This document shows positions 3,729-35,019 of a stretch of DNA of 35,019 nucleotides, piece after piece. The translations under genes were made by a program, and so were the position numbers. Source of the stretch: an uncultured Prevotella sp. (GTDB lineage: Bacteria > Bacteroidota > Bacteroidia > Bacteroidales > Bacteroidaceae). Numbering within the stretch: the stretch's first letter is position 1; every line of letters starts with the position of its first letter. The notes beneath the pieces are model-generated. The model saw only the letters and a list, made by a program, of their open reading frames with translations, did no database searches and was not told the origin of the DNA. The stretch is taken from positions 1 to 35,019 of the forward strand of contig CAMGFM010000002.1 in assembly GCA_946055365.1 (NCBI GenBank). Reading direction: 5' to 3'.

Positions 3729-3754
3729 GTTGTCAAACGGTTGCGTAAGTGTCT

Positions 3755-8866: not shown

Positions 8867-8935
8867 AGCGATAAATGTATTAATGGTAATGGATTTGTCG
8901 GTGCATGAGGTGCTGTCGGCCCTCCTTGGCTCAGG

Positions 8936-11987: not shown

Positions 11988-12068
11988 GGAAAACGGCACT
12001 TTAGCCCCAGAAAAACGGCACTTTGCACCTTCAAAAGCGGCACTTTGCAAACGAAAAGCGACACTTTA
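11988..12068. repeat. Phased quasi-palindrome array C (4 units)
   Basis: AAAACGGCACTTT, AAAACGGCACTTT, AAAGCGGCACTTT, AAAGCGACACTTT; centres 11996, 12018, 12040, 12061. Confidence 0.85.
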
Positions 12069-12253: not shown

Positions 12254-15200
12254 ATGAAGCAGGTTAAATTGACAAACGCAGTCAGGACAGCCACCCTTGC
12301 GGCAGGCCTGTTCCTGAGTGCCAATGCCTTTGCACAGCAGATAGTTGTCAGGGGCAACGTTACGGACGAGACGGGCGAACCCGTCATCGGTGCTTCCGTC
12401 AAGGTCGTCGGGGGGCAGATAGGTGCCGTTACCGACATCGACGGCAACTTCCAGCTTTCCGTAGACCAGAAGTCCACCATCGAGATCACCTACATCGGCT
12501 ATGAGCCAGTCAAGGTGCAGGCATCAGCCACTGCCCTCAACGTGCAGCTCAAGAACACCTCGTCAACGCTCAACGAGGTAGTGGTCATCGGCTATGGCGC
12601 AGTAAAGAAGTCCGACCTTACGGGTTCTGTCACCGCTCTCAAGCCCGACTCCAAGAACAAGGGTCTCGTGGTCAATGCGCAGGACATGATCGCGGGCAAG
12701 GTAGCGGGCGTGAACGTCACAACAAACTCGGGTGAGCCTGGCGTAGGCACGCAGATACGCATACGTGGCGGCTCTTCGCTCTCCGCATCCAACGACCCGC
12801 TGATAGTGATTGACGGCGTGCCTATGGACAACAACAAGGTGGGCAACACCGGCAGCAACGTCCTTTCCACCATCAACCCTCAGGACATAGAGTCATTTAA
12901 CGTTCTCAAGGACGCTTCTGCCACTGCCATCTACGGATCGCGCGGCTCCAACGGTGTCATCATCATCACCACCAAGAAGGGACACAAGGGACAGAAGCCC
13001 GAGGTGAGCTATGCGGGCAGCGTGTCAGTGTCTATGAAGAAAAAGACCTATGACATGATGAACGGCGACCAGTATCGCGAGTATGTCAGGAGCATATTCA
13101 ACGAGGGCGACGACGCTGTCAAGGCACTCGGCACGGCCAATACCGACTGGCAGGATCTCATCTACCGCACAGCAGTGAGCCACGACCACAACATCACGCT
13201 CAGCGGCTCCGCAGGCGATGTGCTGCCCTACCGCGTGTCACTCGGCTATACCGGACAGCAGGGTATCCTCAAAAACTCTGACTACAACCGCTATACCGCA
13301 TCTGTAAGCCTCAATCCGTCGCTCCTCAACAACCACCTCAACATCAACATCAACGCCAAGGGCATGTATTCCAAGGCAAAGAAGGCTGACACAGGTGCCA
13401 TCGGCGCAGCCGTAAGCTATGACCCCACACAGAGTCCCTACGGCTTTACATCGGAGCGCGACCTCGCCATGCTCGGCAACAAGGCAGAGCAGACGCTCAA
13501 AAACTTTGGCGGCTACTTCGAGTGGCTCACCGACGCTTCGGGATATGGCGACGCACAGTGGCCGTTCACACGTTTCAAGGACGCTCCGTCCAACCCCCTC
13601 GCCCTGCTTGAGCTCGGCGGCAACACCGAGCGCGTCAACTCGTTCATCGGCTCGGCTGACGTCGACTACAAAGTGCATGGCTTTGAAGACCTGCGCCTGC
13701 ATGTGACCGCTGGTGCTGAGGTTGCACAGGGACGTGTCAACGAGACACAGCCCACTTCTTATCCCTCCACCATCTACTATGGCGGCGTGACCAAGAACAA
13801 GAACCTCAAGCGCAACCTCCTCCTGAGCATGTACGCACAGTACTTCAAGGATTTCAACAAGAACCACCACTTCGACATCATGGGCGGCTACGAGTATCAG
13901 CACTTCTTCTTCCGCTATGACAACAGCTGGAAGCAGTTCTATCCTGAGACCAACGCCAACGCCGGCGCAGAGTTCAAGAACACGCTCGACAAGGACAAGT
14001 ATGAGAACTATCTCGTGTCGTTCTTCGGACGCGCCAACTACACTCTCATGAACCGCTACTACTTCACTGCCACCGTGCGTGACGACGGCTCTTCGCGCTT
14101 TGCCGACCACTGGGGTCTCTTCCCGTCATTCGCTTTTGCATGGCGTGCCAAGGACGAGGCTTTGCTCAAGGACGTGAACTGGCTCTCTGACCTCAAGGTG
14201 CGTCTCGGCTATGGCAAGACAGGACAGCAGGAGGGCATTGACAACTATATATGGTTCAAGCAGTATAAGAAAGGACAGAACTTCGGCAACTATCCCGTCA
14301 TCGGCGACGGCTCAATCTACACGCCGCTCTACTATAACGACAAGCTCAAGTGGGAGACTACGGAGACTTACAACGTGGGACTCGACTTCGGCTTCCTCAA
14401 CAACCGACTCTCGGGTAGCGTAGACTGGTATTACCGCAAGACTACCGACCTTATCAACTCTGCACCCGTCGCTGCACTCGCAGGCTCTGCCGACCGAGGA
14501 CTGCAAAACATCGGCTCGCTCAAGAACACTGGCGTGGAGGCTTCGCTCACCTACATAGCACTCAACACCAAGGACTGGTATTGGACCATGAGCTACAACG
14601 TCACCTACAACAAGAACGAGATTACCGACCTCAGCGGCGTGAGCGACACCGGCGACCCCGTACTCACTGGCGACAACATCGACTCATCCAACAAGGTGCT
14701 TGCCTATCAGACAGGCTATGCCGCCAACTCGTTCTATGTGTACCAGCAGCTCTATGACTCAAACGGCAAGCCCATCGAGGGTGCTGTGGTCGACCGTGAC
14801 GGCAACGGCGTCATCAGCGAGAAAGACCGCTACCTCTACAAGTCGGTGGCCGCGCCTCTCACCATGGGATTCTCCTCAAGGGTAGAGTGGAAGAACTTTG
14901 ACCTCGGCTTCTCTCTCCGCGCAAGCATCGGCAACTATGTCTACAACAGCTTCGAGCAGGGCAAGCGTCTCAAGACTTCCAGCTCGGTATGGTGCCAGAG
15001 CTCATATCTCGCCAACCGACCGGTCAACACTCTCGGATGGGAGTCCGACTCCAACACCTCAAAGCTCAGCGACTACTTCGTGCAGAACGCCTCTTTCCTC
15101 AAGATGGACAACATCACGCTCGGCTATTCTTTCAGCGACCTCTTCAAGGCAGGCTCCTGGAAGGGACTCAGCGGACGCGTCTACGCATCTTGCTCCAACG

Positions 15201-15313
15201 TGTTCACCATCACAAAGTATAGCGGCATCGACCCCGAGGTCTACAACGGTATCGACAACAACGTCTATCCGCGTCCCATCACGTTCCTCATGGGTGTGAG
15301 CCTCAATTTCTAA
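12254..15313 (+). CDS. susC: SusC-like TonB-linked outer membrane protein
   Basis: 1019 aa; signal peptide; carboxypeptidase-like domain VRGNVTDETGEPVIGASVKVVG; plug motifs VVIGYGAVKKSDLTGSV, IRIRGGSSLSASNDPLIVIDGVPM and ASATAIYGSRGSNGVIIITTKKG. Confidence 0.95.
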   Translation: MKQVKLTNAVRTATLAAGLFLSANAFAQQIVVRGNVTDETGEPVIGASVKVVGGQIGAVTDIDGNFQLSVDQKSTIEITYIGYEPVKVQASATALNVQLKNTSSTLNEVVVIGYGAVKKSDLTGSVTALKPDSKNKGLVVNAQDMIAGKVAGVNVTTNSGEPGVGTQIRIRGGSSLSASNDPLIVIDGVPMDNNKVGNTGSNVLSTINPQDIESFNVLKDASATAIYGSRGSNGVIIITTKKGHKGQKPEVSYAGSVSVSMKKKTYDMMNGDQYREYVRSIFNEGDDAVKALGTANTDWQDLIYRTAVSHDHNITLSGSAGDVLPYRVSLGYTGQQGILKNSDYNRYTASVSLNPSLLNNHLNININAKGMYSKAKKADTGAIGAAVSYDPTQSPYGFTSERDLAMLGNKAEQTLKNFGGYFEWLTDASGYGDAQWPFTRFKDAPSNPLALLELGGNTERVNSFIGSADVDYKVHGFEDLRLHVTAGAEVAQGRVNETQPTSYPSTIYYGGVTKNKNLKRNLLLSMYAQYFKDFNKNHHFDIMGGYEYQHFFFRYDNSWKQFYPETNANAGAEFKNTLDKDKYENYLVSFFGRANYTLMNRYYFTATVRDDGSSRFADHWGLFPSFAFAWRAKDEALLKDVNWLSDLKVRLGYGKTGQQEGIDNYIWFKQYKKGQNFGNYPVIGDGSIYTPLYYNDKLKWETTETYNVGLDFGFLNNRLSGSVDWYYRKTTDLINSAPVAALAGSADRGLQNIGSLKNTGVEASLTYIALNTKDWYWTMSYNVTYNKNEITDLSGVSDTGDPVLTGDNIDSSNKVLAYQTGYAANSFYVYQQLYDSNGKPIEGAVVDRDGNGVISEKDRYLYKSVAAPLTMGFSSRVEWKNFDLGFSLRASIGNYVYNSFEQGKRLKTSSSVWCQSSYLANRPVNTLGWESDSNTSKLSDYFVQNASFLKMDNITLGYSFSDLFKAGSWKGLSGRVYASCSNVFTITKYSGIDPEVYNGIDNNVYPRPITFLMGVSLNF

Positions 15314-15352
15314 GCACATAACACACATTATATATTAAATAGAAACAAGACA

Positions 15353-16990
15353 ATGAAAAGACACATAATGAAGGCTCTGGCTCCCGCCGCCGCACTGATA
15401 TTCAGCATGGCTGCGACTTCTTGTCTCAACGACCTCGACAACGAGCCAATAAGCCCCAAGATCGACCTTGAGGTCAGCAACGACGGCCTGCTCAACAAGT
15501 GCTACGCCAACTTTGGTATCAACGGCACGGGCAGCGGCAGCAACAGCGACGACGACTGCGACGTAAAAGGCTTCAACGACAACGGCATGACAGGTCTCGT
15601 GAGAGCCATGTGGAATATCAACGAGCTGCCCACCGACGAGGCAACATGCTCGTGGGGCGACGGCTTGCAGGAACTCAACTTTGCCAAGTATGACCCCTCT
15701 CACCAGTGGGTGAAGCTCTACTTCACGCGTCTCACGCTCGGCATCACTTTCTGCAACCAGTATCTCGCCGTGGCAGGCGACGAGGATGCCACAAAGGCCG
15801 CCGAGTGCCGCTTCCTGCGCGCCATGCAGTATTATCTGCTCATGGATGCCTATGGCAACGTGCCTTTCAGCGAGACCATGGAAAAGCCGCAGCAGGTCTC
15901 ACGTGCAGAGATGTATGAGTGGCTTGTTAAGGAATTGACCGAAAACGTGGAGCCTGCCCTCGCCGAGCCAAAGGCCAAGACCTCTGCCGACGCTGGCTAC
16001 GGACGCGTCGACAAGGCTTCATGCTGGCTGCTGCTCTCCAGACTCTACCTCAACGCCGAGGTCTACACTGGCAAGGCCGACTGGGAGAACGCCAAGAAAT
16101 ACGCACAAAAGGTCATTGACTCTCCCTATGACATCAACACCACTTCTGTGAACGGATGGAGTGCCTACCAGCTCGTGTTCATGGGCGACAACGACCGCTC
16201 GGCAGCCGCCAAGGAGATACTCTTCCCCATTGTCAACAAGTCGGGCACCACTGCCTCCTACGGCAATTCGCTCTTCCTCATCGCAGGATGCTTTGATGCC
16301 GCCATGCATGCCAACCCCAACGACCCCAACGGCAGCAACGGCTGCGTGGGACAGACTTGGATAGGCCTGCACCCGCGTGTGTCACTCCTCCGCAAGTTCT
16401 TCCCCAACAGCGTTGCGCCCGAGGTGCCGTCTTATGAGATGACTGAGCGCGCCGGCGACGACCGCGCCATCTTCTGGGGTGAGGGTCGCACCTACGAAAT
16501 AGTCAATATCACCAAGTCGGCAGAGGGCTATGGCGTGTGCAAGTTCATTAATTACAACAGCGACAACACCGCTCAAGTCGACCCGGGCTTTGCCGACATG
16601 GACTGGCCATTCCTTCGCGCTGCCGAAGCCTACCTCAACTATGCTGAGGCTGACGCTCGCATGAACGGCGGCACCACCGGCGTGGAGGGAACACGCAAGC
16701 TCAACGCCCTGCGCCAGCGCGCCAACGCCACCACGCGCCCCGAGACCAACGGCTACTCGCTCAGCGAGATATGCGACGAGTGGAGCCGCGAGTTCTACTT
16801 TGAGGGCATACGCCGCACAACCCTCGTCCGCTTCAACCGCTTTGGCGGCAACACCGGCTATAACTGGGACTGGAAGGGCGGCGAGCCTGCAGGCAAGGAC
16901 TTTGAGGCCTACAAGAACGTCTATCCAATACCTCTCACGCAGATACAGAGCAACACCAACCTCAAGCAAAATGACGGCTATGTCAACTGA
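15353..16990 (+). CDS. susD: SusD-like starch-binding outer membrane lipoprotein
   Basis: Lipobox ATSC; RagB/SusD features (WVKLYFTRLTLGITFCNQYL, AECRFLRAMQYYLLMDAYGNVPF, LNYAEA, EFYFEGIRRTTLVRF); directly after susC. Confidence 0.95.
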   Translation: MKRHIMKALAPAAALIFSMAATSCLNDLDNEPISPKIDLEVSNDGLLNKCYANFGINGTGSGSNSDDDCDVKGFNDNGMTGLVRAMWNINELPTDEATCSWGDGLQELNFAKYDPSHQWVKLYFTRLTLGITFCNQYLAVAGDEDATKAAECRFLRAMQYYLLMDAYGNVPFSETMEKPQQVSRAEMYEWLVKELTENVEPALAEPKAKTSADAGYGRVDKASCWLLLSRLYLNAEVYTGKADWENAKKYAQKVIDSPYDINTTSVNGWSAYQLVFMGDNDRSAAAKEILFPIVNKSGTTASYGNSLFLIAGCFDAAMHANPNDPNGSNGCVGQTWIGLHPRVSLLRKFFPNSVAPEVPSYEMTERAGDDRAIFWGEGRTYEIVNITKSAEGYGVCKFINYNSDNTAQVDPGFADMDWPFLRAAEAYLNYAEADARMNGGTTGVEGTRKLNALRQRANATTRPETNGYSLSEICDEWSREFYFEGIRRTTLVRFNRFGGNTGYNWDWKGGEPAGKDFEAYKNVYPIPLTQIQSNTNLKQNDGYVN

Positions 16991-17059
16991 CGGCTGGCGT
17001 GACAGGCTCATAAAGTCATACACCTTAATTAATAACAGTATTATAAACGCACGACAAAT

Positions 17060-18208
17060 ATGAAAAATATATTCAAATCGGCATTGATGCTGATGGCGGG
17101 CTTCGCACTCCTCACATCCTGCGAGGACGATCGCGACGACAACCCCACCGTCTATGCACCGACAGAGTTTGTACTCAACACACCTGCCGCCGCATCCGAA
17201 AACATAGACCTCGCCAGCTCTTCGGCCCTCACGCTCACCTGCTCGCAGCCAAACTACGGTTTTCCTGCCTCAACGAAGTACACCGTGCAGGTGTCGCTCA
17301 ACGAGGACATGAGCGACATGGCTGCTCTCGACCAGAACTTCCAGAACACGGTCATCAGCGTTGACCCTTCCATCCTCGCAAGCAGCCTCACCACCCTTGC
17401 GCTCAACAGCGGCAAGGCAGAGGAGGACTTTCCGCTTGACATTCCCGTCTATGTGCGTCTGCGTGCGTGCATCGTCACCGACACTGACGGCGAGGTGGCC
17501 GGCACAGAGATACTCTCAAATGTCATAAAGCTCTCTTCAGTACACGTCAAGTACTCCCTCGCTCCCGTAGAGTTGCCCAAGCACATCTACGTCGTAGGTA
17601 GCTTCTGCGGATGGGACTGGGGCAGCTGCTTTGAGTTCGTTCCCGTCTACGAGCATCCCGAGATGTTCTGGCGCATGGTCTACATCGACGACCAGGGTGT
17701 CAAGATCAACACCGACAAGGCATGGGACGGCGGCGAGAAAGGCTTCAGCCAGATCACTGTCGATGGCGACCTCAAGGGCGAGATAGTAGACGGCGGCGGC
17801 AACATCGCCTCTTCCAAGCCCGGATGGTATCTCATGATAGTCACAGCCAGTGTCAAGGGCCGCGACATTGTCTACAACGTGCAGTTCAACCAGCCGCTTG
17901 TGTGGCTCATGGGCAACGTTATCGGCTCTTGGGACGAGTGTGCCGACGGATGGTCGTTTGATGTGCCTGCCACAAAGGACGGCGACTTCGTGTCTCCCGC
18001 CTTTGCAGGCTCTTCCGCAGGTGATGCCGACGGTGGCGTGCGCGCCTATGTCAAGGTGCCTGGCAACGACTGGTGGCACTCAGAGTTCATGGTCCTCAAC
18101 GGTGTCATTGAATATCGTGGCGCGGGAGGCGACCAGGCACGTGTGTCAGGCAACGCCGGACAGCGTCTTTACCTCAACTTCTCCAACGGCACAGGTGCTA
18201 TCAAGTAA
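17060..18208 (+). CDS. susE: SusE-like outer membrane lipoprotein
   Basis: Lipobox LLTSC; N-terminal FVLNTPAAASENIDLASSSALTLTCSQPNYGFPASTKYTVQVS typical of SusE; repeated starch-binding-type modules (YVVGSFCGWDWG, LMGNVIGSWDECADGW). Confidence 0.85.
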   Translation: MKNIFKSALMLMAGFALLTSCEDDRDDNPTVYAPTEFVLNTPAAASENIDLASSSALTLTCSQPNYGFPASTKYTVQVSLNEDMSDMAALDQNFQNTVISVDPSILASSLTTLALNSGKAEEDFPLDIPVYVRLRACIVTDTDGEVAGTEILSNVIKLSSVHVKYSLAPVELPKHIYVVGSFCGWDWGSCFEFVPVYEHPEMFWRMVYIDDQGVKINTDKAWDGGEKGFSQITVDGDLKGEIVDGGGNIASSKPGWYLMIVTASVKGRDIVYNVQFNQPLVWLMGNVIGSWDECADGWSFDVPATKDGDFVSPAFAGSSAGDADGGVRAYVKVPGNDWWHSEFMVLNGVIEYRGAGGDQARVSGNAGQRLYLNFSNGTGAIK

Positions 18209-18260
18209 GACACCCGAGCCGCACGACATCAGTCAATAGACATTTTTCAAACAATCCACA

Positions 18261-18318
18261 TCCCCTGCCGTCTGCCGCAAACCTTAGGCGCGACAGCCTC
18301 CGCAGGCGCGGCAGGGGA
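18261..18318 (+). promoter_or_regulatory. Intercistronic inverted repeat between susE- and susF-like genes
   Basis: TCCCCTGCCG (18261-18270) and CGGCAGGGGA (18309-18318); no T-tract, so an RNA-processing or stability hairpin is plausible. Confidence 0.5.
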
Positions 18319-18340
18319 GAAACAAACTCATAAAGACAAG

Positions 18341-19441
18341 ATGAAAAAGACATCAATATTTGCAGGCGCGATGCTTCTCGCGCTCACGCTTGCATCCTGT
18401 AGCGACGACTACAACGACTGGGCCGCGCCGCAGACCAATCCGCAGGAAGAAGCCATCACCATAAGCGGCTTCTCAGCAGCCGCCGTGCCTGCCATAGACC
18501 TCGGCACGGTCTCAGGCGACAAGGTTGCCGTGTTCAGTCTCAACGCAGGCACTCTGCCAGAGGGCTACACCCTCTCCAAGGCGCAGCTTGAGCTTGTGCC
18601 TGTGGACGGCAAGGGTCAATACACCATCGCCACCACTCTTGAGGGCGAGGCTGCCGTGGCAGACCTCACTGAAATGGTGGAGGCAGCCTTTGGCAAGCGT
18701 CCTGAGATGCGCGTCTTCGACGCAAAGGTCGTGCTAAACGCCGACTGCAACGGACAGTCCCTGCGCGTCAATGCAGGCGAAGTGAAGTTGCAGCTCATGC
18801 CTGCCGCATCCAACTACACCGTCAAGTATTATATAGTGGGCAAGATGCAGGGCTGGGACGCCACCAACATGTCGTGCGCACTCTATCCTCACGACCAGTT
18901 TGTCTATAGCTACACCACTCGCTATGACGATGACGCCAACCTGAAGATATGGTCAGAGGACACATTCGGCAATTGGAACCTCGCCTATGGCTGTGCCGCA
19001 GGCGCAGACCATTTCACCGAGGGCGACTTCGTGCAGAATGGAGGTGCCATAGTATGTCCCGAGCCGGGCTCATACTACACTTTCACCGCCGACTTCTCCA
19101 CCATGCACTACACATGGACCAAGTGCGACGACCAGAACCCCGCCACCTTCACACAGATGGGTCTCGTGGGAGGCATGACAGGATGGGCTGACGGAGCAGA
19201 CATCGTCATGACGCAGACAAGCCCCTGCAACTGGTATGCGGATCTCACGCTTGCCGAGGAAACGGAGCTCAAGTTCCGCGCCGACGGAGCATGGGACAAC
19301 AACTGGGGCACGGAAATCAATGTAGGCGAGACATTCTACGGCACCGGCACGCTGGGCGGAAAGAACATCAAGGTGCCTGCAGGCAACTATGCTGTCTACT
19401 TCAACAACATCACCGGACAGTTTGTGTTCGTGGCAAAGTAA
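18341..19441 (+). CDS. susF: SusF/SusE-like outer membrane lipoprotein
   Basis: Lipobox LASCSDDYNDW; C-terminal modules YIVGKMQGWDATN and MGLVGGMTGWADGADIVM...ELKFRADGAWDNNWGTE typical of SusE/F. Confidence 0.8.
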   Translation: MKKTSIFAGAMLLALTLASCSDDYNDWAAPQTNPQEEAITISGFSAAAVPAIDLGTVSGDKVAVFSLNAGTLPEGYTLSKAQLELVPVDGKGQYTIATTLEGEAAVADLTEMVEAAFGKRPEMRVFDAKVVLNADCNGQSLRVNAGEVKLQLMPAASNYTVKYYIVGKMQGWDATNMSCALYPHDQFVYSYTTRYDDDANLKIWSEDTFGNWNLAYGCAAGADHFTEGDFVQNGGAIVCPEPGSYYTFTADFSTMHYTWTKCDDQNPATFTQMGLVGGMTGWADGADIVMTQTSPCNWYADLTLAEETELKFRADGAWDNNWGTEINVGETFYGTGTLGGKNIKVPAGNYAVYFNNITGQFVFVAK

Positions 19442-19475
19442 GAGACGGCATATCACAACGCTTTCACCAAACAAA

Positions 19476-19690
19476 CAAGGCGGCACTTTCCTCATGTGAG
19501 AGTGCCGCCTTGGCGTTACAGGAGGATCACGCCTCCCCACGCAAAGTGCCGCCTGGCATGCGAGAGTGTCGCCTGGCATTTAGGAGAGGGCGGCATGCCT
19601 AAATGAAAAGTGCCGCCTGGCATCTGTAAAGAGCCGCTTTGACACACGCAAAGTGCCGTTTCCCGACAAGAGAAGCGGCACTTTGCGTGT
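19476..19690. repeat. Phased quasi-palindrome array D (10 units)
   Basis: Centres 19483, 19505, 19527, 19549, 19569, 19593, 19613, 19634, 19656, 19678; includes two extended inverted repeats. Confidence 0.8.
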
Positions 19691-19695
19691 GTCAA
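19639..19695. repeat. Perfect 20-bp inverted repeat containing two array units
   Basis: TTGACACACGCAAAGTGCCG (19639-19658) / CGGCACTTTGCGTGTGTCAA (19676-19695), 17-nt loop. Confidence 0.9.
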
Positions 19696-19719
19696 CACTG
19701 CGAGTTGTCTTTTCACACA

Positions 19720-19755
19720 AAGGGGATGAAGCCACAAACGTGCCTTCATCCCCTT
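19720..19755. terminator. Strong stem-loop between convergent susF-like and hsp20 genes
   Basis: AAGGGGATGAAGCCAC-AAAC-GTGCCTTCATCCCCTT, 15 of 16 bp paired. Confidence 0.65.
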
Positions 19756-19855
19756 GCCGAAACCAATAAAAAACCTCACAATCCGAGGTCATCCATTTAT
19801 TAACTCAATCATTAACCCTTTTGTTCTTGTCTCTTTGCCTTGCGTCAGGCCACCG

Positions 19856-20284
19856 TCATTCGATGTTGATGTTGCGCTCTATCTTCTTCACCTCCTCTTT
19901 GTTGGTTTTTGGCATGGTCACTGTAAGCACGCCGTTGTCCACCTTGGCGGAGATGTTGTCCTTTACGATGTCATCGGGCAGCACGTAGGTCTGCTGATAG
20001 TTGGAGTAGCTGAACTCACGGCGCAAGAAATGCTCCTTTTTGCTCTCTTCCTTGTGCTCCAGCTTGTTTTCGATGGCGATGTCGAGGTTTCCGTCGGCGT
20101 TGACGCTTACCCTGCAAAATTCCTTTTTGATGCCTGGCACAGCCAACTCCATGGTATAGGCCTCCGCATTTTCCTTTACGTTGACAGCCGGTGCAGTGGC
20201 TTTCATCTTCGGCATCCAGTCGCTGTTGAAGAAATCGTCAAATACTGTGGGAAACCAACTGTTTGTGTTCATTACTGGTAACAT
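19856..20284 (-). CDS. Hsp20/alpha-crystallin family small heat shock protein
   Basis: 142 aa; VNVKENAEAYTMELAVPGIKKEFCRVSVNADGNLDIAIENK, REFSYSNYQQTYVLPDDIVKDNISAKVDNGVLTVTMPK; GGAGG ribosome-binding-like site upstream. Confidence 0.95.
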   Translation of the reverse strand: MLPVMNTNSWFPTVFDDFFNSDWMPKMKATAPAVNVKENAEAYTMELAVPGIKKEFCRVSVNADGNLDIAIENKLEHKEESKKEHFLRREFSYSNYQQTYVLPDDIVKDNISAKVDNGVLTVTMPKTNKEEVKKIERNINIE

Positions 20285-20758
20285 AATAACCTCCTTGTTT
20301 TACAATCTTTTTTTTTCTGCGGGCCTTGCGGCTCTTTTAGAGCCTTGCGCCTGCACCCTATATAATGCAATGAGCGTGCCGTGAGCGCAAATGGTGACAT
20401 AAAGTCAGCAAAGTGTAATTTTTTTAAACATTGCTGTCTTTTTGGCTTTAACCCCAATAGGTCAATAGGACGTTATGATGATAATAACTTCTATTTTTTT
20501 TGCAGATGATTTTATGTTTTGAGGGCGCAATGAGGTCACATTGTAGCCGAAAAAACGGTAAGACAGATGTCAAAAAGAAAGTTTGTTTGCACATAAAGTC
20601 CTAATGACCGTTTTGGGTTAAAGGGTGACAGATTGTAAAGTGGCGAGGCGCGGCTGCCCGAGGGCTTGCGTCTGGGCGTGTGTGTCACTGAGCCTCGTGC
20701 AATCTTTCATGCGCCTGAAGCCCTCCGCCCTTTCCAGCGTCATGGGGCAGGATGTGAA

Positions 20759-20774
20759 GTGTAAACGTTTTCAC
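20759..20774. promoter_or_regulatory. LacI-family operator-like palindrome upstream of GH77 gene
   Basis: GTGTAAACGTTTTCAC, 14 of 16 positions palindromic, central CG. Confidence 0.6.
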
Positions 20775-20827
20775 TGATGTTTTGCAAAAAAACCGCATTG
20801 ATGTGTGTCATAACGCAGATGATTTAC

Positions 20828-20835
20828 TAACTTTG
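20828..20835 (+). promoter_or_regulatory. Putative -7 element for the GH77-pullulanase operon
   Basis: TAACTTTG (TAnnTTTG) about 54 bp downstream of the operator-like site; implies a ~210 nt 5' leader. Confidence 0.5.
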
Positions 20836-21049
20836 TATCAGCCTTTTGCCTTATAGCCTTGCGACACATGCAGAGGCGGTTGCCGGGCGGCGTGAGACAT
20901 GTTGTGGCATGGCCGCCAAACGCCTGTGGAGTAGCGACAAGACGTTTGTGTCATGGCAAAAAAAAGACTCTCTTGAGACGTGGCGACCGCACGCCCAAGG
21001 GAGAAGACCTTAGACGACGATATAACCAATAAACAATTTATATAACACG

Positions 21050-23818
21050 ATGAAAACAATATTCAACATCAAATACGACACCAAGTATGGAGAGGAACTC
21101 CTGCTTAACCTGCGTGCCGTGGGCTCTGCCTGTGCCGCAGGGCAGGAGGGAGAGGGGGCGTGCCAGGCATGGGACACCCTGCCCATGAACACGGGCGACG
21201 GCCATGTGTGGACGTGCGAGACCACGCTCGACGACGGCAACGTGTGTTATGACTATTTCTACAGCGTGCGCGGCTGCAACGGCACGATGCGCACGGAGTG
21301 GCAGACGGTGTGCCACTGCCTGAATCTCACGGCGGCAAAGGCAAAGACGTGCGTGGTGGATGACGTGTGGATGGACTTCCCGTGCGACGCCTACCTTTAT
21401 AGCAGCGCGTTTACCGACTGCATCAACAACCGTCCGTGCCTCGCACCCGTCACGTCGTCCTTTGGGAGCACCCTGCGTCTCGTGGTGCGCGCCCCGCAGC
21501 TGCGCAGGGGGGCGAGACTCGTGCTTGCTGGCGACGGTGAGGCTCTCGGCAACTGGGACGTGGCGCGCGCCCTGCCCATGACCGAGCATAGCCACAATGA
21601 GTGGATGGTAGACATTGACGTGGCAAGCCTCTGCCAGGCTCGCCCAAAGGCGGCATGGCAGCCCGGGGGCAAGACCTCCGACGACAAGCCCGCACTGCGC
21701 GTGGAGTTCAAGTTTGTGGCTCTTGGCGACAAGGGCGAAGTGTGGTGGGAGACTGGCGACAACCGTGTGTTGCAGACAGCCGTTCCTGCCGACGGCACAA
21801 TGCTCGTGAAAGCCCTCGATCAGGCGTTCTTTGCCATCTGCAACGACAAACTGGCAGGCACGCTCGTGCCTGTGTTCTCCCTGCGCTCGGCAGGCAGCTT
21901 CGGCGTGGGCGACTTTGGCGACCTGCGGCTCATGATCGACTGGGTGGCAGAGACACGCCAGCGTGTGCTGCAGGTGCTGCCCATCAACGACACCACGTCC
22001 ACGCACACATGGACCGACTCCTATCCCTACTCCTGCATCAGCATCTTTGCCCTGCATCCGCAGTATTGCGACCTGCGACAGCTACCCCCGCTCAAGGATG
22101 CCGACAAGGCGGCACGCCTCGAGGCATTGCGCCTGGAGCTGAACGCCCTGCCGCAGATAGACTATGAGCGTGTCAACGATGCCAAGACAGAGTATCTGCG
22201 CGAGATGTATGCCCAGGAGGGACGGGAGACGCTGCTCACCGACGAGTTTGGCTCGTTCTTCAGCCGCACTTCACACTGGCTCGTGCCTTATGCCCAATAC
22301 TGCCATCTGCGCGACCGCTACGGCACATGCGATTTCAGCGCATGGGAGGGCCACGAGCGGTGGCATGAGTGCGACCGCAAGGCTCTCTCTCGCCCCGGCA
22401 GTGAGGCTTGGCATGAGGTGGCGTTCTATTACTACGTGCAGTTTGTGCTTGACCGACAGATGCGCGCCGCCCACGACTATGCCAAGGCGCGCGGCGTGGT
22501 GCTGAAGGGCGACATACCCATTGGCGTGAACCGCAACGGATGTGACGTGTGGCACGAGCCAGAATATTTCAACCTCGACTCGCAGGCAGGCGCGCCGCCA
22601 GACGCTTTCTCCGTGAACGGCCAGAACTGGGGATTTCCCACCTACAACTGGCAGAGGATGATTGCCGACGGATGCAAGTGGTGGGTGAGGAGGTTTCAGA
22701 ACATGTCAAATTATTTTGATGCCTACCGCATAGACCACGTCTTGGGCTTCTTCCGCATCTGGGCGATACCCACCGACTGCGTGCATGGGCTGCTCGGACA
22801 GTTCCAGCCCGCACTCGCCATGAGCCGTGAGGAGATAGAGGGCTATGGACTGAGGTTTCAGGAGGAGCTGTTCACCACTCCGTTCATTGCCGATTGGGTT
22901 ATTGACCGAGTGTTCCGTGAGCGTGCCGACGAGGTGAGGGCCACTTTCCTCGACCACGCCCACCACGACATCTACAGGCTCAAGCCCGAGTTTGACACGG
23001 AGCGCAAGATAGAGGCGTGGTTTGACGGCAAGACCGAGGAGAGAGACATCTGGCTCAGAGACGGGCTATACTCTCTCGTGAGCGACGTGCTGTTTGTGAG
23101 AGACCGCGCCAACTCCAACATGTATCATCCGCGCATCACGGCACAGCTCAACTTCATGTATGAGGCTCTGTGCGACAGCGACAAGGCCGCCTTTAACCGC
23201 CTCTACAACGACTACTACTATCGCCGCAACAGCCAGTTCTGGTATCACGAGGCCATGAAGAAGCTGCCGCGACTCTCACAGGCCACTCGTATGCTCGTGT
23301 GTGCCGAAGATCTCGGCATGGTGCCCGACTGTGTGCCTTGGGTGATGGAGGAGCTGCGCATATTGAGCCTCGAGCTGCAGTCCATGCCCAAAGACCCGAG
23401 CGTGAAGTTTGGCATACTCTCGCGCAACCCTTACCGCTCGGTATGCACACTGTCCACTCACGACATGCCGACGCTCAGGCAATGGTGGGACGAGGACCCC
23501 TCACTGACGCAGGAATACTACAACACCATGCTCTACCGCGGCGGGGCTGCACCGCATCCGCTGCCCGGATGGCTGGCACGCGACATTGTAGCAAGGCAGC
23601 TCGACTCTCCCTCGATGCTGTGTGTGCTGTCCATACAAGACTGGATGGCCATGGACGAGAGGCTGAGGCTGCCCGATGCCGACGCGGAGCGCATCAACAT
23701 TCCTGCCAACCCCAGACACTACTGGAGATACCGTATGCACGTGGGCATAGAGAGCCTCATGGTCAGCAAGGAGTTCAATGACAACATAAGGGAGCTTGTG
23801 TCTGCCGCAGGACGATAG
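21050..23818 (+). CDS. malQ: 4-alpha-glucanotransferase (GH77) with N-terminal starch-binding (CBM20-like) modules
   Basis: 922 aa; LRSAGSFGVGDFGDLRLMIDW, LPINDTTSTHTWTDSYPYSCIS, KGDIPIGVNRNGCDVW, FDAYRIDHVLGFFRIW, VCAEDLGMVPDCVPWVM, STHDMPTLRQWW. Confidence 0.95.
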   Translation: MKTIFNIKYDTKYGEELLLNLRAVGSACAAGQEGEGACQAWDTLPMNTGDGHVWTCETTLDDGNVCYDYFYSVRGCNGTMRTEWQTVCHCLNLTAAKAKTCVVDDVWMDFPCDAYLYSSAFTDCINNRPCLAPVTSSFGSTLRLVVRAPQLRRGARLVLAGDGEALGNWDVARALPMTEHSHNEWMVDIDVASLCQARPKAAWQPGGKTSDDKPALRVEFKFVALGDKGEVWWETGDNRVLQTAVPADGTMLVKALDQAFFAICNDKLAGTLVPVFSLRSAGSFGVGDFGDLRLMIDWVAETRQRVLQVLPINDTTSTHTWTDSYPYSCISIFALHPQYCDLRQLPPLKDADKAARLEALRLELNALPQIDYERVNDAKTEYLREMYAQEGRETLLTDEFGSFFSRTSHWLVPYAQYCHLRDRYGTCDFSAWEGHERWHECDRKALSRPGSEAWHEVAFYYYVQFVLDRQMRAAHDYAKARGVVLKGDIPIGVNRNGCDVWHEPEYFNLDSQAGAPPDAFSVNGQNWGFPTYNWQRMIADGCKWWVRRFQNMSNYFDAYRIDHVLGFFRIWAIPTDCVHGLLGQFQPALAMSREEIEGYGLRFQEELFTTPFIADWVIDRVFRERADEVRATFLDHAHHDIYRLKPEFDTERKIEAWFDGKTEERDIWLRDGLYSLVSDVLFVRDRANSNMYHPRITAQLNFMYEALCDSDKAAFNRLYNDYYYRRNSQFWYHEAMKKLPRLSQATRMLVCAEDLGMVPDCVPWVMEELRILSLELQSMPKDPSVKFGILSRNPYRSVCTLSTHDMPTLRQWWDEDPSLTQEYYNTMLYRGGAAPHPLPGWLARDIVARQLDSPSMLCVLSIQDWMAMDERLRLPDADAERINIPANPRHYWRYRMHVGIESLMVSKEFNDNIRELVSAAGR

Positions 23819-23867
23819 GCATGATGCGTGACGGCAGGACACACTTTGACCATACATTAATATATAT

Positions 23868-25793
23868 ATGAAGATAAAGAACCTACTCCTGTCGCTGCTC
23901 ACCGTGGCGGCGGCACCGTCTGTGCAGGCACAGACGTTTGACGAGGTGGTCTATTCGCCCAAGTCCACCACATTCAGCCTTGTCACATCGCCCGACGTGA
24001 GGAGCGTGGATGTGCTTATCACCGACACCGACAGCGACGACAGCAACGGCCGTGTGCTAAAGAGGATGAAGCGCGTGGCTGACGGCAGATGGCGCGTGAC
24101 AGTAAAGGACGACCTCAAGGACAAGTATTATGTCTTTAATGTCTACAACCGCGAGCAGCCCGATGTCACTCCGGGTGTCTTCGCCAAGGCCGTGGGGCTA
24201 AACGGCCGCCGCGGAGCGATCGTCGACATGCGTGAGACCGACCCCGAGGGATGGAATCGTGACGTGAGACCCGCGCTAAAGTCGCCCTCAGACCTCATTA
24301 TATATGAGCTGCACCACAGAGACTTCTCTGTCGACATCTCCTCGGGACTCAGGCACAAGGGCAAGTATCTCGCCCTGTCAGAGCCAAAGGCCATAGAATA
24401 TCTCAAGAGGCTCGGCGTGAACGCCATACATCTGCTGCCCTCGTTTGACTATGCCTCCGTCGACGAGTCTGTGCCCGACAGCAGACAGTATAACTGGGGC
24501 TATGACCCGCTCAACTATAATGTGCCAGAGGGCTCTTACTCCACCAACGCCGCCGACCCCAAGACACGCATACGCGAGTTTAAGACCATGGTGCAGGCGT
24601 TGCACAAGGCTGGCATAAGGGTTATACTCGACGTGGTCTACAACCACACGTTTGACATTGAGGGTTCTAACTTCCAGAAGACGTGGCCCGGCTATTATTA
24701 CCGCAAGACGCAGGACGGCAAGTATAGCGACGGCTCGGGCTGCGGCAACGAGACGGCAAGCGAGAAGCCGCTGATGCGCGAGTTTATGATAGAGAGCGTG
24801 AAATACTGGATAGAGGAGTATCACATCGACGGCTTCCGCTTCGACCTCATGGGCATACACGACATAGAGACCATGAACGCCATACGCGCGGCGGTGGACT
24901 CCATAGACCCCTCCATCTATATTTATGGTGAGGGATGGAGCGCAGGCACATGCGCCTATCCCGAAGAACAGCTCGCCATGAAGCGCAATACGGGTCGTCT
25001 CGACGGCATAGGCGCGTTCTGCGACGACATGCGCGATGCCTTGCGCGGTCCTTTCTCCGACGACCACAAGGGCGGCTTCCTCGCGGGCGTGCCTGGACAG
25101 GAGGAGAGCATTAAGTTTGGGCTGGCAGGAGCCGTCAGCCATCCGCAGATAGACATGAGCCGCGTGAACTATTCTGACGCTCCGTGGGCCAACCAGCCCA
25201 CACAGATGGTGGCTTATGTGAGCTGTCATGACGACATGTGCCTCACCGACAGGCTGCGCACGAGCATTCCCTATATCTCTGATGACGAACTCATACGCCT
25301 TGACCTGCTCGCACAGACGGCGGTGCTTGTTTCGCAGGGCGTGCCGTTCATTCTGTGCGGCGAGGAGATGCTGCGCGACAAGAAGGGAGTGCATAACTCG
25401 TTTCGCTCTCCCGACTCTGTCAACCATCTTGACTGGCACAATCTCAGCCGCTATCCGCAAGTCTTCGACTACTACTCTGGACTCATAGCCTTGCGCAAGG
25501 CTCATCCGGCGTTCCGCATGGGCGATGCCGACGAGGTGAGGCGCAACCTCGAGTTTCTTGACGCGCCTGCCGGCATGGTGGCGTTTGTGTTGAAAAACCA
25601 TGCAGGCGGCGACGAGTGGGGCAATATAGTGGTGGTGCTTAACGCCAACGCCAAGCCCACAAGCGTGAGAGTGCCGCAGGGCGGATATACTATGGTCGTG
25701 GCTGACGGCAAGGTAAACGCCAAGGGCCTCGGCACGTTCACAGGCGACAATCTGACAGTAGCCCCGCAGACAGCAGTCATCATGCACGACTGA
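23868..25793 (+). CDS. pulA: Type I pullulanase (GH13_14), secreted
   Basis: 641 aa; signal peptide; YNWGYDPLNYNVPEGSYS type I pullulanase hallmark; GH13 blocks ILDVVYNHTF, GFRFDLMGIHD and YGEGW. Confidence 0.93.
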   Translation: MKIKNLLLSLLTVAAAPSVQAQTFDEVVYSPKSTTFSLVTSPDVRSVDVLITDTDSDDSNGRVLKRMKRVADGRWRVTVKDDLKDKYYVFNVYNREQPDVTPGVFAKAVGLNGRRGAIVDMRETDPEGWNRDVRPALKSPSDLIIYELHHRDFSVDISSGLRHKGKYLALSEPKAIEYLKRLGVNAIHLLPSFDYASVDESVPDSRQYNWGYDPLNYNVPEGSYSTNAADPKTRIREFKTMVQALHKAGIRVILDVVYNHTFDIEGSNFQKTWPGYYYRKTQDGKYSDGSGCGNETASEKPLMREFMIESVKYWIEEYHIDGFRFDLMGIHDIETMNAIRAAVDSIDPSIYIYGEGWSAGTCAYPEEQLAMKRNTGRLDGIGAFCDDMRDALRGPFSDDHKGGFLAGVPGQEESIKFGLAGAVSHPQIDMSRVNYSDAPWANQPTQMVAYVSCHDDMCLTDRLRTSIPYISDDELIRLDLLAQTAVLVSQGVPFILCGEEMLRDKKGVHNSFRSPDSVNHLDWHNLSRYPQVFDYYSGLIALRKAHPAFRMGDADEVRRNLEFLDAPAGMVAFVLKNHAGGDEWGNIVVVLNANAKPTSVRVPQGGYTMVVADGKVNAKGLGTFTGDNLTVAPQTAVIMHD

Positions 25794-25815
25794 CGGCTGC
25801 CGCAAGGCATCGGGC

Positions 25816-25918
25816 TAAAGTGGCACTTGAGCGATGGCAAAGTGTCACTTTAGCGACACAGAGCGGCACTTTGCAATGGCAAAAGTGCCGCTTTCCTGAC
25901 GGCGAAATGCCGCTTTTG
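25816..25918. repeat. Phased quasi-palindrome array E (5 units)
   Basis: AAAGTGGCACTTG, AAAGTGTCACTTT, GAGCGGCACTTT, AAAGTGCCGCTTT, AAATGCCGCTTTT; centres 25823, 25845, 25866, 25888, 25910. Confidence 0.85.
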
Positions 25919-26019
25919 CATTGTCAGGGCTGACGACGCGCCACACGTGACACCTCTTCCGCCCGTGCAAAGACACATTGTATCAATCATCCAATAACAT
26001 CCAAACATCACACGACGCT

Positions 26020-27999
26020 ATGACAATCACCAGCAATCTCACCTTAAGGGCAGGCTTGAGGGCCTTGCTCTTTCTGAGTGTGTTATTTTTATCAGGCAAG
26101 ACTATGGCAAAGGACAAGAAACCCAAGGCCTCAAAGCCCACTATTGACCGCATAGACCCCACCTGTTGGTATGCAGGCATGAAAAACCCCTCGTTGCAGC
26201 TCATGGTCTACGGGCGTGACATACGCGACGCGGAGGTTGCCACCGACTATCTCGGCGTGACCGTCGACTCGCTTGTGAGGCTCGACAGCCCCAACTACCT
26301 GCTGGTCTATCTCAACCTCAAGGACGCACAGCCAGGCACCATGCAACTCACGTTCAAGAGGGGCGGTAAGTATGCCGCCAAGGTTGACTATGAGATCAGG
26401 AGACGCGACATGCCCGGCGAAAGGCGCGTGGGCTTCAGCAACGCCGACGTGCTTTACATGCTCATGCCCGACCGCTTTGCCAATGGCTCTGGCTCAAACG
26501 ACAACATCAAGTCGCTCAACGCCTATAAGGTAGACCGCACACAGCCCTCTCTGAGGCACGGCGGCGACCTTGAGGGCATCAGACAGCACCTCGACTACTT
26601 CAACGAGCTGGGCGTGACGGCACTCTGGTTTACGCCTGTGCTTGAAAACAACTCGCCCGACCACGGCAACCAAAGCACCTACCATGGCTATGCCACTACC
26701 GACTACTATCGTGTAGACCCGCGCTTCGGCATTAACGATGAATACAGACGGCTCATCGACGAGGCACACGCCAAGGGACTCAAGGTGGTGATGGACATGA
26801 TATTCAACCATTGTGGCTTTGAGCATCCGTGGGTCAAGGACATGCCTGCCGCCGACTGGTTTAACACTCCCGAATGGCTCTATCCCGAAAACCAGAAGAA
26901 CGCCGTCAAGACACAGACAATGGACGGTGAGCAGACCACCAACGACAAGTATCTACAGACAAGCTACAAGCTCACGCCCGTGCTTGACCCCTACGCCAGC
27001 CAAGTGGACATGCGCGAGACGGTGGACGGATGGTTCGTGCCTTCCATGCCCGACCTCAACCAACGCAACCACCACGTCATCACCTATCTCATACAAAATT
27101 CCGAGTGGTGGATAGAGACTGCTGGCATTGACGGCATACGCATGGACACCTATCCTTACGCCGACCGCAGAGCCATGGCGCATTGGATGAAGGTGCTTAA
27201 CGAGGAATATCCCAATTTCAACACCGTTGGCGAGACCTGGGTGACAGAGCCTGCCTACACGGCGGCATGGCAGAAAGACTCACCGCTCTCTGACATCAAC
27301 TCAAATCTCAAGACGGTCATGGACTTCTCGTTCTTTGACAAGCTCAATCAGGCCAAAAACGAGGAGACCGACGACTGGTGGACAGGCTACAACCGCATCT
27401 ACAACTCCTTGTGCTATGACTATCTCTATGTAGACCCGTCATCTGTCATGGCTTTCATCGAAAACCACGACACCGACCGCTTCCTCGGAGAGGGACAGGA
27501 CACGCCCGCGCTCAAGCAGGCCCTCGCCTTGCTGCTCACCATCAACCGCACGCCGCAGCTCTACTATGGCACGGAGATACTCATGAACGGCACCAAGAGG
27601 GTCACCGACGGCCATGTGAGAAAGGATTTCCCTGGCGGTTTCCCGGGCGACACACGCAATGCTTTCATCAAGGAGCAGCGCACCAAGGACGAGCAGGACA
27701 TGTTTGCATGGACAAGCCGACTGCTGCACTGGCGCAAGGGCAACGAGGTCATCATCAAGGGCCGTCAGACACAGTTCATACCCTACAAGGGAGTGTATGT
27801 GGTGGCACGCACCCTCAACGGCAAGTGTGTCATGACCGTTCTCAACGGCACGTCCAAGGACGCGACTCTCAGCGTGTCACGCTATGCGGAGATTATAGGC
27901 ACGCACAAGGAGGCTGTTGACGTGCTTACGGGCAGCAAGGTCGACTTGACAAAAGACGTGAGGCTCGCCCCAAGGGCGGTCTTTGTGCTTGACATGTAG
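26020..27999 (+). CDS. susA: GH13 neopullulanase/cyclomaltodextrinase-like, SusA-like (ORF-track start 25978 possible but ATG 26020 precedes the signal peptide)
   Basis: Cyclomaltodextrinase-type N-domain (IDRIDPTCWYAGMKNPSLQLMVYG); LYMLMPDRFANG, VVMDMIFNHCGFEHPW, GIRMDTYPYAD, VGETWV, FIENHDTDRFL. Confidence 0.92.
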   Translation: MTITSNLTLRAGLRALLFLSVLFLSGKTMAKDKKPKASKPTIDRIDPTCWYAGMKNPSLQLMVYGRDIRDAEVATDYLGVTVDSLVRLDSPNYLLVYLNLKDAQPGTMQLTFKRGGKYAAKVDYEIRRRDMPGERRVGFSNADVLYMLMPDRFANGSGSNDNIKSLNAYKVDRTQPSLRHGGDLEGIRQHLDYFNELGVTALWFTPVLENNSPDHGNQSTYHGYATTDYYRVDPRFGINDEYRRLIDEAHAKGLKVVMDMIFNHCGFEHPWVKDMPAADWFNTPEWLYPENQKNAVKTQTMDGEQTTNDKYLQTSYKLTPVLDPYASQVDMRETVDGWFVPSMPDLNQRNHHVITYLIQNSEWWIETAGIDGIRMDTYPYADRRAMAHWMKVLNEEYPNFNTVGETWVTEPAYTAAWQKDSPLSDINSNLKTVMDFSFFDKLNQAKNEETDDWWTGYNRIYNSLCYDYLYVDPSSVMAFIENHDTDRFLGEGQDTPALKQALALLLTINRTPQLYYGTEILMNGTKRVTDGHVRKDFPGGFPGDTRNAFIKEQRTKDEQDMFAWTSRLLHWRKGNEVIIKGRQTQFIPYKGVYVVARTLNGKCVMTVLNGTSKDATLSVSRYAEIIGTHKEAVDVLTGSKVDLTKDVRLAPRAVFVLDM

Positions 28000-28102
28000 C
28001 CCCCACACGGCATCACACACGTGCTATCACGCACACGCTTGCTTGCCGTGTTTCTGAAAAAAGAAAAATAAGAAAAGAAAAAAACGCCCAAGACACAACA
28101 GA

Positions 28103-28130
28103 GCCGTCTCGTCCGTCAGCACGAGACGGC
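28103..28130. promoter_or_regulatory. Perfect 10-bp stem hairpin upstream of alpha-amylase
   Basis: GCCGTCTCGT-CCGTCAGC-ACGAGACGGC; no adjacent plus-strand T-tract. Confidence 0.5.
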
Positions 28131-28191
28131 AGGGCAGTCGTTCAAAGTGGGTCATGTCAATGGCTCACACACCTTTATAAAAACAAAAGAC

Positions 28192-30237
28192 ATGAGAAGA
28201 CTCCTGTTATCTGCCATCTGTCTCTCCGCCGCCACGGCGGCCATGGCACAGGGATGGCCCTCCGCCCACAAGGGCGTGATGCTTCAGGCTTTCTATTGGG
28301 ACAGTTATGATGCCACGGCGTGGTCAAAACTCGAGAGCCAAGCCGATGAATTGTCCGACTATTTCAACCTTGTGTGGATACCGCAGAGCGCGTCGTGCGG
28401 CGGCAAGTCCATGGGCTATGACGACCTCTATTGGTTCAGCCACTACGACAGTTCCTTTGGCACGGAGGAACAGCTGCGCTCGATGATTGGCACGTTCAAG
28501 TCAAAGGGCATAGGCACCATCGCCGACGTGGTAATCAACCACCGCAAGGGTGAGACCAACTGGGTTGACTTTCCTGCGGAGACATACAATGGCACTACCT
28601 ATCAGCTTTTTTCCACCGATATATGCAAGGGTGATGACGGGGGCAACACCCAGAAGTGGATAAACGACAACGGTCTGCAAGGCAAGTATGCCCTCAGCGA
28701 CAACTATGACACGGGCGACGACTTCAACGGCGCGCGCGACCTCGACCACAACAGTCCCAACGTGCAGGCAAACGTCAAGGCCTATCTGCGTTTCCTGCTC
28801 GACGAGCTGGGCTATACTGGCTTTCGCTATGACATGACCAAGGGCTATGCAGGCAAATTCACGGGCTTGTATAACGCCGATGCCGCTCCCGTCTACAGCG
28901 TGGGCGAGTATTGGGACGGCAACAAGGCCTCCTTGCAGGCGTGGCTCAACAGCACCAAGGTCGACGACAATATCATGACCGCCGCCTTTGACTTTCCCAT
29001 ACGCTACTCCTGCCGTGACGCCGCCAATAACGGCGACTGGTCAAAGCTCGACAACGGCGGTCTTGCCACCGTCAGCACCTACAGACGCTATGCCGTGACC
29101 TTCTGCGAGAACCACGACACGCAATATCGCTCGGCAAGTGAGCAGAACGATCCCATACGCAAGGACACCCTTGCCGTCAACGCCTATCTGCTCGCCATGC
29201 CTGGCACTCCCTGCGTGTTCCTCAGACACTGGATGGACTACAAGCCCGAACTCAAGAACATGATAATGCTGCGCAACCTCACGGGCATAAGCAACACCAG
29301 CAAGTGGGGGTGTGTGGAGAACAGTAAGGACCGCTATGTGCTGACCTCTACGGGCGACAACGGCAAGCTCATGGCTGCCGTGGGCAAGACCGCTGGCGAC
29401 TATGAGCCTGATGCGGGATGGGCATTGGCCCATGAGGGCTATCATTACCGCTATTTCCTCGAGACCACGCAGGAGACAGTGTGGCCCTCGTTGCCGTCGG
29501 GCGAATACTATAACGCCCCTGCCGTGGTGCTGCGGGCCATCACAGGGAGCGACGGCGCAAAGATAGTCTACACCCTTGACGGCAGTGAGCCGACAGCCTC
29601 CTCGCCCTCCGTGGCAAACGGGGCAAGCGTCGCTCTGCCCTCTGGCACGGTGACGCTCAAGGCAGGACTGCTCACGGGCGGCACGGTCAAGGGCATACAG
29701 ACACGCCGCTATGACATAAAGGCATTTGAGGCTCATGACATAGACGTGTATGTCAATGCCGACAAGGTGGGCTGGAGCGAAATGTATTTCTGGACATGGG
29801 GCGGCGACGGCAGCCATGCGCCACAAAACGGCACATGGCCGGGTGACAAGGTCTCCACCACCTTACGGATGAACGACAGGGAGTGGTTTGTGCGCACGTT
29901 CACCATCAACGCCCCCGACGACTATGTCAACATGGTGCTTGCCAAGAACGCCTTGGTGCAGACCATGGATGTCACTGGCGTAAATGCCGACACGTGGCTT
30001 GAGATACAGGGTGACAAAGACGCGCAGGGACACTATCTCGTAAAGGACGTGACAAGCGAGCAGCCCTCTGCCATCGTCAACGTCCACGACGACACAGCCG
30101 CCAAACCCACAAGTGTCATCACCATTGACGGCCGCTGCCTGCGCACGTTCACACATCATGTGGGCGAAAGCGAGGCTCTGAGAGGACTCGGCAAAGGCGT
30201 GTATATAGTGAACGGACGCAAGGTGGTGAGACATTGA
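28192..30237 (+). CDS. Secreted alpha-amylase (GH13) with C-terminal CBM26-like module and T9SS-type C-terminal motif (ORF-track start 28147 probably too early)
   Basis: Signal peptide MRRLLLSAICLSAATAAMAQ; GVMLQAFYWDSYD, IADVVINHR, GFRYDMTKGY, VGEYWDGN, FCENHDTQYR; starch-binding segment DIDVYVNADKVGWSEMYFWTWGGDGSHAPQNGTWPG; C-terminal GKGVYIVNGRKVV. Confidence 0.92.
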   Translation: MRRLLLSAICLSAATAAMAQGWPSAHKGVMLQAFYWDSYDATAWSKLESQADELSDYFNLVWIPQSASCGGKSMGYDDLYWFSHYDSSFGTEEQLRSMIGTFKSKGIGTIADVVINHRKGETNWVDFPAETYNGTTYQLFSTDICKGDDGGNTQKWINDNGLQGKYALSDNYDTGDDFNGARDLDHNSPNVQANVKAYLRFLLDELGYTGFRYDMTKGYAGKFTGLYNADAAPVYSVGEYWDGNKASLQAWLNSTKVDDNIMTAAFDFPIRYSCRDAANNGDWSKLDNGGLATVSTYRRYAVTFCENHDTQYRSASEQNDPIRKDTLAVNAYLLAMPGTPCVFLRHWMDYKPELKNMIMLRNLTGISNTSKWGCVENSKDRYVLTSTGDNGKLMAAVGKTAGDYEPDAGWALAHEGYHYRYFLETTQETVWPSLPSGEYYNAPAVVLRAITGSDGAKIVYTLDGSEPTASSPSVANGASVALPSGTVTLKAGLLTGGTVKGIQTRRYDIKAFEAHDIDVYVNADKVGWSEMYFWTWGGDGSHAPQNGTWPGDKVSTTLRMNDREWFVRTFTINAPDDYVNMVLAKNALVQTMDVTGVNADTWLEIQGDKDAQGHYLVKDVTSEQPSAIVNVHDDTAAKPTSVITIDGRCLRTFTHHVGESEALRGLGKGVYIVNGRKVVRH

Positions 30238-30317: not shown

Positions 30318-30632
30318 AGAGCGGCATTTGGCACATCGTCAAGTGCCGCTTTTGTTGTCGTATAGCGGCACTTGGCTTTCACAGAGTGGCACTTGGCTTT
30401 TATGTAGTGCCGCTTTTGTTGCCGCAGAGTGGCACTTGGCTTTCACAGAGTGGCACTTGGCTTTTATGTAGTGCCGCTTTTGTTGCCGCAGAGTGGCACT
30501 TGGCTTTCACAGAGTGGCACTTGGCTTTTATGTAGCGGCACTTTTGTTGCCGCAGAGTGGCACTTGGCTATCACAGAGTGGCACTTGAATTTTATGGAGT
30601 GGCACTTTTGCTATCACAGAGCGTCACTTTTG
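30318..30632. repeat. Phased quasi-palindrome array F (15 units, largest and most regular)
   Basis: Centres 30324, 30346, 30368, 30389, 30410, 30432, 30453, 30474, 30496, 30517, 30538, 30560, 30581, 30602, 30624; all spacings 21 or 22; part has a 64-bp (three-unit) higher-order repeat. Confidence 0.95.

Positions 30633-30742: not shown

Positions 30743-35019
<4,277 letters not shown>

Follow-up and report, generated by a model that had tools for sequence, protein, structure and literature searches.

What is an array of 15 imperfect palindromes, set at intervals of 21 or 22 bp, doing between two sugar-utilization genes of an uncultured Prevotella? The DNA analyzed here (the window, 35,019 nucleotides) is one entire contig of a Prevotella-type MAG with a 1.69 Mb assembly that is 57% complete, and it contains a starch-utilization (Sus) locus and two GH2 beta-galactosidases. 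The Sus-type locus extends over positions 12254–30237 and includes SusC/D/E/F-like genes, amylases, and a pullulanase, with a LacI-family regulator upstream. The array itself (30318–30630; like the other arrays below, not assigned to a strand) is flanked by convergent genes for an amylase (28147–30237, forward strand) and a GH2 beta-galactosidase (30743–34450, reverse strand). An earlier note on the window had described 15 consecutive cores with every step at 21 or 22 bp, and all 15 AAAGYGSCRCTTT-type cores were indeed present, with steps of 22, 22, 21, 21, 22, 21, 21, 22, 21, 21, 22, 21, 21, and 22 bp (300 bp over 14 steps, mean 21.4). TRF reported a period of 21 and also a period of 64 (4.2 copies, 94% match), the latter indicating that a 3-unit block was recently duplicated within part of the array. 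As a feature the array is real, but its length is atypical, four being the usual unit: similar arrays occur chromosome-wide, and this one is unusually expanded.

Several other members occur in the window. A canonical quartet (11990–12067; steps of 22, 22, and 21 bp) lies between divergent LacI-family and TonB-receptor genes, and an 8-unit array (3713–3897, with its clear part at about 3755–3897) lies between a GH2 gene and an unassigned gene on the same strand. An interrupted array of 3 + 5 units (19477–19684) is located downstream of the susF-like gene, and a 5-unit array (25817–25916; steps of 22, 21, 22, and 22 bp) separates the pullulanase-type and cyclomaltodextrinase genes. A degenerate array with a 22/44-bp period (8933–9069), located between those at 3.8 and 12.0 kb, contains a diverged core, TTGTGGTTTTGCGCC..., and is inferred to be possibly a decayed array.

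Core, Pitch, and Spacers in the Same Genome

The sample of this genome, an incomplete MAG, comprised the window and 20 further contigs that were chosen by number and not by match (338.6 kb in total), with genes predicted by a simple ORF criterion. When motifs with at least 11 of 13 matching positions were counted, nearly all pairs less than 110 bp apart fell at 21/22, 42–44, 63–66, 85–88, and 106–110 bp. This is the sharp 21–22 bp peak with harmonics whose occurrence outside the window the earlier note had proposed as a check, and whose absence there would have refuted it. The sample contained 63 arrays of at least three units, and three runs of Markov resampling of the noncoding DNA yielded no array and only two single units, which places the array far outside chance expectation. 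Throughout the 1.69 Mb assembly, a strict two-unit pattern matched 275 and 301 times on the two strands (0 in the reversed control), and a strict three-unit pattern (AAG-N5-CTT) matched 203 times.

The 13-bp core has the oriented consensus AAAGYGGCWCTTT, and its central G and C (positions 5 and 7) are approximately 99% conserved in this genome. Cores carry 0.6–1.9 bits of information per position and spacers 0.0–0.3; between arrays, cores are 73% identical vs. 29% for the spacers, which are 8–9 bp long and near random. Tandem duplication with the core no better kept than the spacer, which would have refuted the earlier note, is ruled out by these values. Arrays were found in all gene orientations, including between divergent pairs, at a median distance of 85 bp from gene 3′ ends vs. 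152 bp from 5′ ends. Four further noncoding loci of the same genome (L032:12290, L033:13478, L035:11271, and L037:459) harbored arrays with a 22-bp period and unrelated cores.

Array Size and Even Spacing

Under one fixed detection rule, the numbers of arrays with one to eight units were 4, 4, 1, 31, 19, 4, 4, and 1, respectively, in addition to the single array of 15. There is thus a sharp size threshold at four units, with quartets making up 31 of the 69 arrays and only nine arrays being smaller. Growth by slippage predicts many singles and pairs, of which there were few. Of the 31 quartets, 21 spanned 65 bp, six 64 bp, and four 66 bp. The 65-bp span was thereby more frequent than independent steps of 21 and 22 bp would give, and the variance of the span was half of what such steps predict (P = 0.003). 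The outermost units face inward (first–last GC 18, CG 4). Adjacent units within arrays are similar to one another, as local duplication predicts.

Merged array loci were 1.7–9.6 kb apart (none closer than 1.6 kb), with a mean of 4.86 kb and a CV of 0.38. Random placement in intergenic slots gave a CV of 0.647 (sd 0.065) and never reached so low a value in 5000 trials (P < 1/5000); the result held under eight definitions of the slots. Arrays per contig were likewise under-dispersed (chi2 6.8 on 20 df). The effect is mainly one of repulsion, and avoidance of long gaps was weak (P 0.03–0.12). The arrays therefore have the non-random, chromosome-wide distribution that a set of chromosome-organizing sites should have, although even spacing by itself could also result from exclusion, for instance through target immunity.

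Arrays with Other Cores in Related Genomes

The core of the window was nearly absent from 35 relatives of the same genus (0–4 copies per strand). A motif-blind scan of the noncoding DNA of these relatives nevertheless detected 24 arrays at a lag of 22 and eight at a lag of 21, against 2–3 at lags of 17–19 and two at 23; in the other families sampled, a peak at 21/22 was not clear. A plain statistic of the distances between palindromes, based on 7 paired positions, lacked sensitivity. A GTDB scan with the core of the window gave at least about 20 Bacteroidales species among the matches listed, including named strains. Named strains that carry arrays are Xylanibacter rodentium PROD, X. brevis ATCC 19188, and Prevotella dentasini JCM 15908. 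Array position at one orthologous locus was not conserved between species in the relatives examined.

Individual relatives have their own cores at the same pitch. The genome G361 has AAAAGSATAGCTTTT as its core, with a pitch of exactly 22 bp and 7-bp spacers that vary; there were 250 pairs vs. 0 in the reversed control, and its two-unit pattern occurred only once across 59 other congeners. Its exact chains were quartets in 11 of 21 cases and longer in one of 21, short chains partly reflecting strict matching. On its first contig, 13 arrays among the matches listed were on average approximately 9.7 kb apart, with a CV of 0.27 vs. 0.90 for uniform placement. In a third species, RUG12472, the closest of the 27 arrays among the matches listed were 7.9 kb apart (P = 0.00035). 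Positions in both genomes rest on strict patterns, which overlook degenerate arrays, and uniform placement was the null against which these positions were tested. Even spacing is thus a property of both the window's genome and G361, and repulsion is evident in RUG12472. One AAAAGSATAGCTTTT pair was also observed in the viral contig IMGVR_UViG_3300017585_000296 (L325:9464–9500).

The complete genome G024 has the core AAACGTTT at 22 bp in 34 places per strand, with 0–2 in others, and G016 contains arrays of 3–8 units with a core near AARTGANKCAARTT, for which spacing data are few. An EM-refined motif for G016 drifted (a 16/17-bp control also found arrays), and only arrays found with its fixed consensus were used. 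For G027, matches to the loose consensus AAAAGNNNCTTTT were mostly chance chains; at one locus of this genome (L172:18102–18212), successive units are different palindromes at a 22-bp pitch, as if dyad symmetry had been kept while the sequence changed. Many species retain AAAG...CTTT in their cores and differ in the center. The cores are species-specific and the pitch is constant. Two genomes from other families of this order also gave matches: G547 contains six dispersed arrays of AAGTYNNACTT with a 22-bp pitch, and 19 places in G468 matched a three-unit repeat in AAGTAACGCTTC style.

Alternative Explanations

The quartets might be selfish dispersed repeats, that is, a miniature non-autonomous mobile element or a minisatellite that spreads between genes, with the 22-bp pitch being the spacing of transposase binding and target immunity producing the even distribution. 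We consider this unlikely, yet it cannot be set aside. In two other species, RGIG3222 and SRR8387716_bin.62, quartets form part of MITE-like elements that have CGTGAAACA/TGTTTCACG in their inverted ends and that share flanks and spacers, and mobile dispersal therefore occurred at least there. These elements are approximately 200–320 bp long and were located at L071, L083, L087, and L100 in the former and at L073, L085, and L108 in the latter. They keep a mobile element alive as the origin of the arrays, though they leave the window's genome unexplained. The inward-facing outer units could also be two transposon ends, and the likeness of neighboring units is a sign that local duplication occurs. 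Moreover, BrickBuilt of Porphyromonas gingivalis is a MITE/minisatellite of 23-nt tandem repeats (19 copies, no spacers), and its leader and tail carry terminal inverted repeats (PMC4596501). Like the Prevotella arrays, it lies between genes of a Bacteroidales species and is made of short tandem repeats, each roughly two helical turns long, and its repeats are partly conserved and variable in number (PMC4596501).

In contrast to BrickBuilt, the Prevotella arrays are palindromic cores at 21–22 bp, occur as hundreds of arrays with a threshold at four units, and are evenly spaced. In the window's genome, no target-site duplication was found at arrays above the level of shuffles and no conserved flank was present, so that what marks a MITE or BrickBuilt-like element is missing there; the spacers are also random between arrays. 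Selfish spread further has to account for a pitch that stays constant while the core changes among species, and the core of the window had no match in viral contigs, phages, or plasmids. The Y1_Tnp domain (PF01797) was absent from G024, G012, G026, G027, G361, and G000, all of which carry 21/22-bp arrays; several of these genomes are incomplete, and G024 is a single contig that is 99% complete.

Several specific candidates were rejected. A RAYT/REP system was rejected for the lack of Y1_Tnp in the complete, array-bearing G024, and a transposition footprint for the lack of both target-site duplication and flank consensus in the window's genome. IS or transposon ends do not fit neighbors that are sugar-utilization genes and quartets that are isolated between host genes. 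CRISPR was dismissed since the arrays have degenerate 13-bp cores and 8–9 bp spacers vs. near-identical repeats of approximately 23–50 nt with spacers of similar length, and Rfam likewise gave no match in the window. The statement of the earlier note that the array has no CRISPR, REP/BIME, or IS-end architecture survived the tests that were made.

A less probable alternative is that intrinsic DNA mechanics suffices: helically phased short A- and T-tracts would make the DNA curved or wrappable, for example as preferred gyrase or HU sites, and the arrays would need no dedicated sequence-specific protein to serve as supercoil sinks. AAA and TTT do recur approximately every 10–11.5 bp along the array, the retention of AAAG...CTTT in many species agrees with such a role, and even spacing at 5–10 kb would fit a topological function. 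In E. coli, BIME-2 arrays are targeted by gyrase (Espeli and Boccard, 1997, as cited in PMC12306157). Mechanics alone, on the other hand, would not need the highly conserved G and C in the core center (positions 5 and 7), and the A-tract part of the core differs in G016 and G024.

An RNA-level element, in which the palindromes would form hairpins in the transcript and thereby terminate it or shield its 3′ end, was already disfavored and is very improbable: palindromes are always able to pair and the arrays lie somewhat closer to gene 3′ ends, but neither positions −2/+2 within units nor any pair of units within quartets had complementarity covariation, arrays also lie between divergent genes, and an Rfam search of the window gave no match to a structured RNA family. 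RNA hairpins and terminators were accordingly rejected, the covariation and gene-orientation tests having given them no support.

Comparison with Known Systems

REPs are hairpin-forming elements associated with Y1 (RAYT, TnpA-REP) transposases. The arrays resemble REP/BIME elements as species-specific intergenic palindromes in hundreds of copies and small clusters, but they lack hairpin covariation, have a fixed helical pitch, and occur without Y1_Tnp in the complete G024. Plasmid iterons and the operators of oligomeric regulators (Lrp/AsnC-type octamers and phage repressors) have several cooperatively bound sites two helical turns apart. The arrays share these multiple sites at two-helical-turn intervals; iterons, however, are direct repeats at one origin. 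Lrp/AsnC, a plausible octameric candidate for the binding protein, was not supported, because its recognition helix is unchanged across species with different array cores; several loci in this comparison lacked a clean open frame. The parS, matS, and SlmA/Noc sites are short palindromes that recur along the chromosome, each set being recognized by a single protein. The arrays are likewise short palindromic sites repeated along the chromosome. However, parS, matS, and SlmA/Noc sites are single sites that have a conserved sequence and are distributed in regional clusters or gradients, whereas the arrays are quartets on a 5–10 kb grid with a core that differs between congeneric species. The architecture was undescribed in what a literature search found, with many subscription papers outside its reach. 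To our knowledge, no bacterial element joins phased palindromes in a set number, an even kb-scale chromosome grid, and a core that differs among sister species.

A Possible Chromosome-Organizing Protein

The arrays meet what is expected of operators for a cooperative dimer, namely cores better conserved than spacers, a fixed helical phase, and a minimum number of sites. The reading of the earlier note, a cooperatively binding dimeric or oligomeric protein, remains the best in view of core-over-spacer conservation, the four-unit threshold, the constrained span, and the absence of RNA-type covariation. With modest confidence, we interpret the arrays as chromosome-wide operators for an unidentified dimeric, cooperatively assembling, chromosome-organizing protein with a specificity that diverges between species; this function is an inference. 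The trans-acting protein has not been identified, and the protein itself, its binding, and its oligomeric state (one dimer per palindrome and four dimers per complex) are therefore inferred. Besides the missing protein, several observations count against this reading: the invariant recognition helix of Lrp/AsnC, the lack of positional conservation at one orthologous locus, the MITE-like carriers of quartets in two other species, the 22-bp arrays with other cores in the window's genome, exclusion as another possible source of even spacing, and the weak avoidance of long gaps.

On this interpretation as operators, each quasi-palindrome of 13–15 bp would bind one dimer, and dimers on neighboring palindromes two helical turns (21–22 bp) apart would lie on the same face, touch, and assemble cooperatively. 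Four palindromes (approximately 78 bp) would form one functional nucleoprotein complex, longer arrays being tandem expansions. One complex per 5–10 kb may then act as an evenly spaced architectural mark, for instance as a boundary between domains, an anchor for loops, or a barrier to supercoiling. The sequence preference of the protein would shift between species, and the sites would shift along with it, while the geometry stays fixed. Both the architectural role on this scale and the co-evolution of protein and sites are inferred.

More tentatively still, Prevotella chromosomes may carry an even grid of four-palindrome docking sites, one per 5–10 kb, for one fast-evolving architectural protein. 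If true, such a grid would amount to a bacterial counterpart of a chromatin anchor set at regular positions, with a DNA code that is rewritten in each species and a four-dimer geometry that is kept. The arrays offer hundreds of natural replicates and make two questions testable, namely what sets the size of bacterial chromosome domains and by what route a protein that has hundreds of sites in a genome can alter its DNA specificity. If a protein reads them, the arrays would represent a new kind of chromosome-organizing system in bacteria that rank among the most abundant of animal guts.
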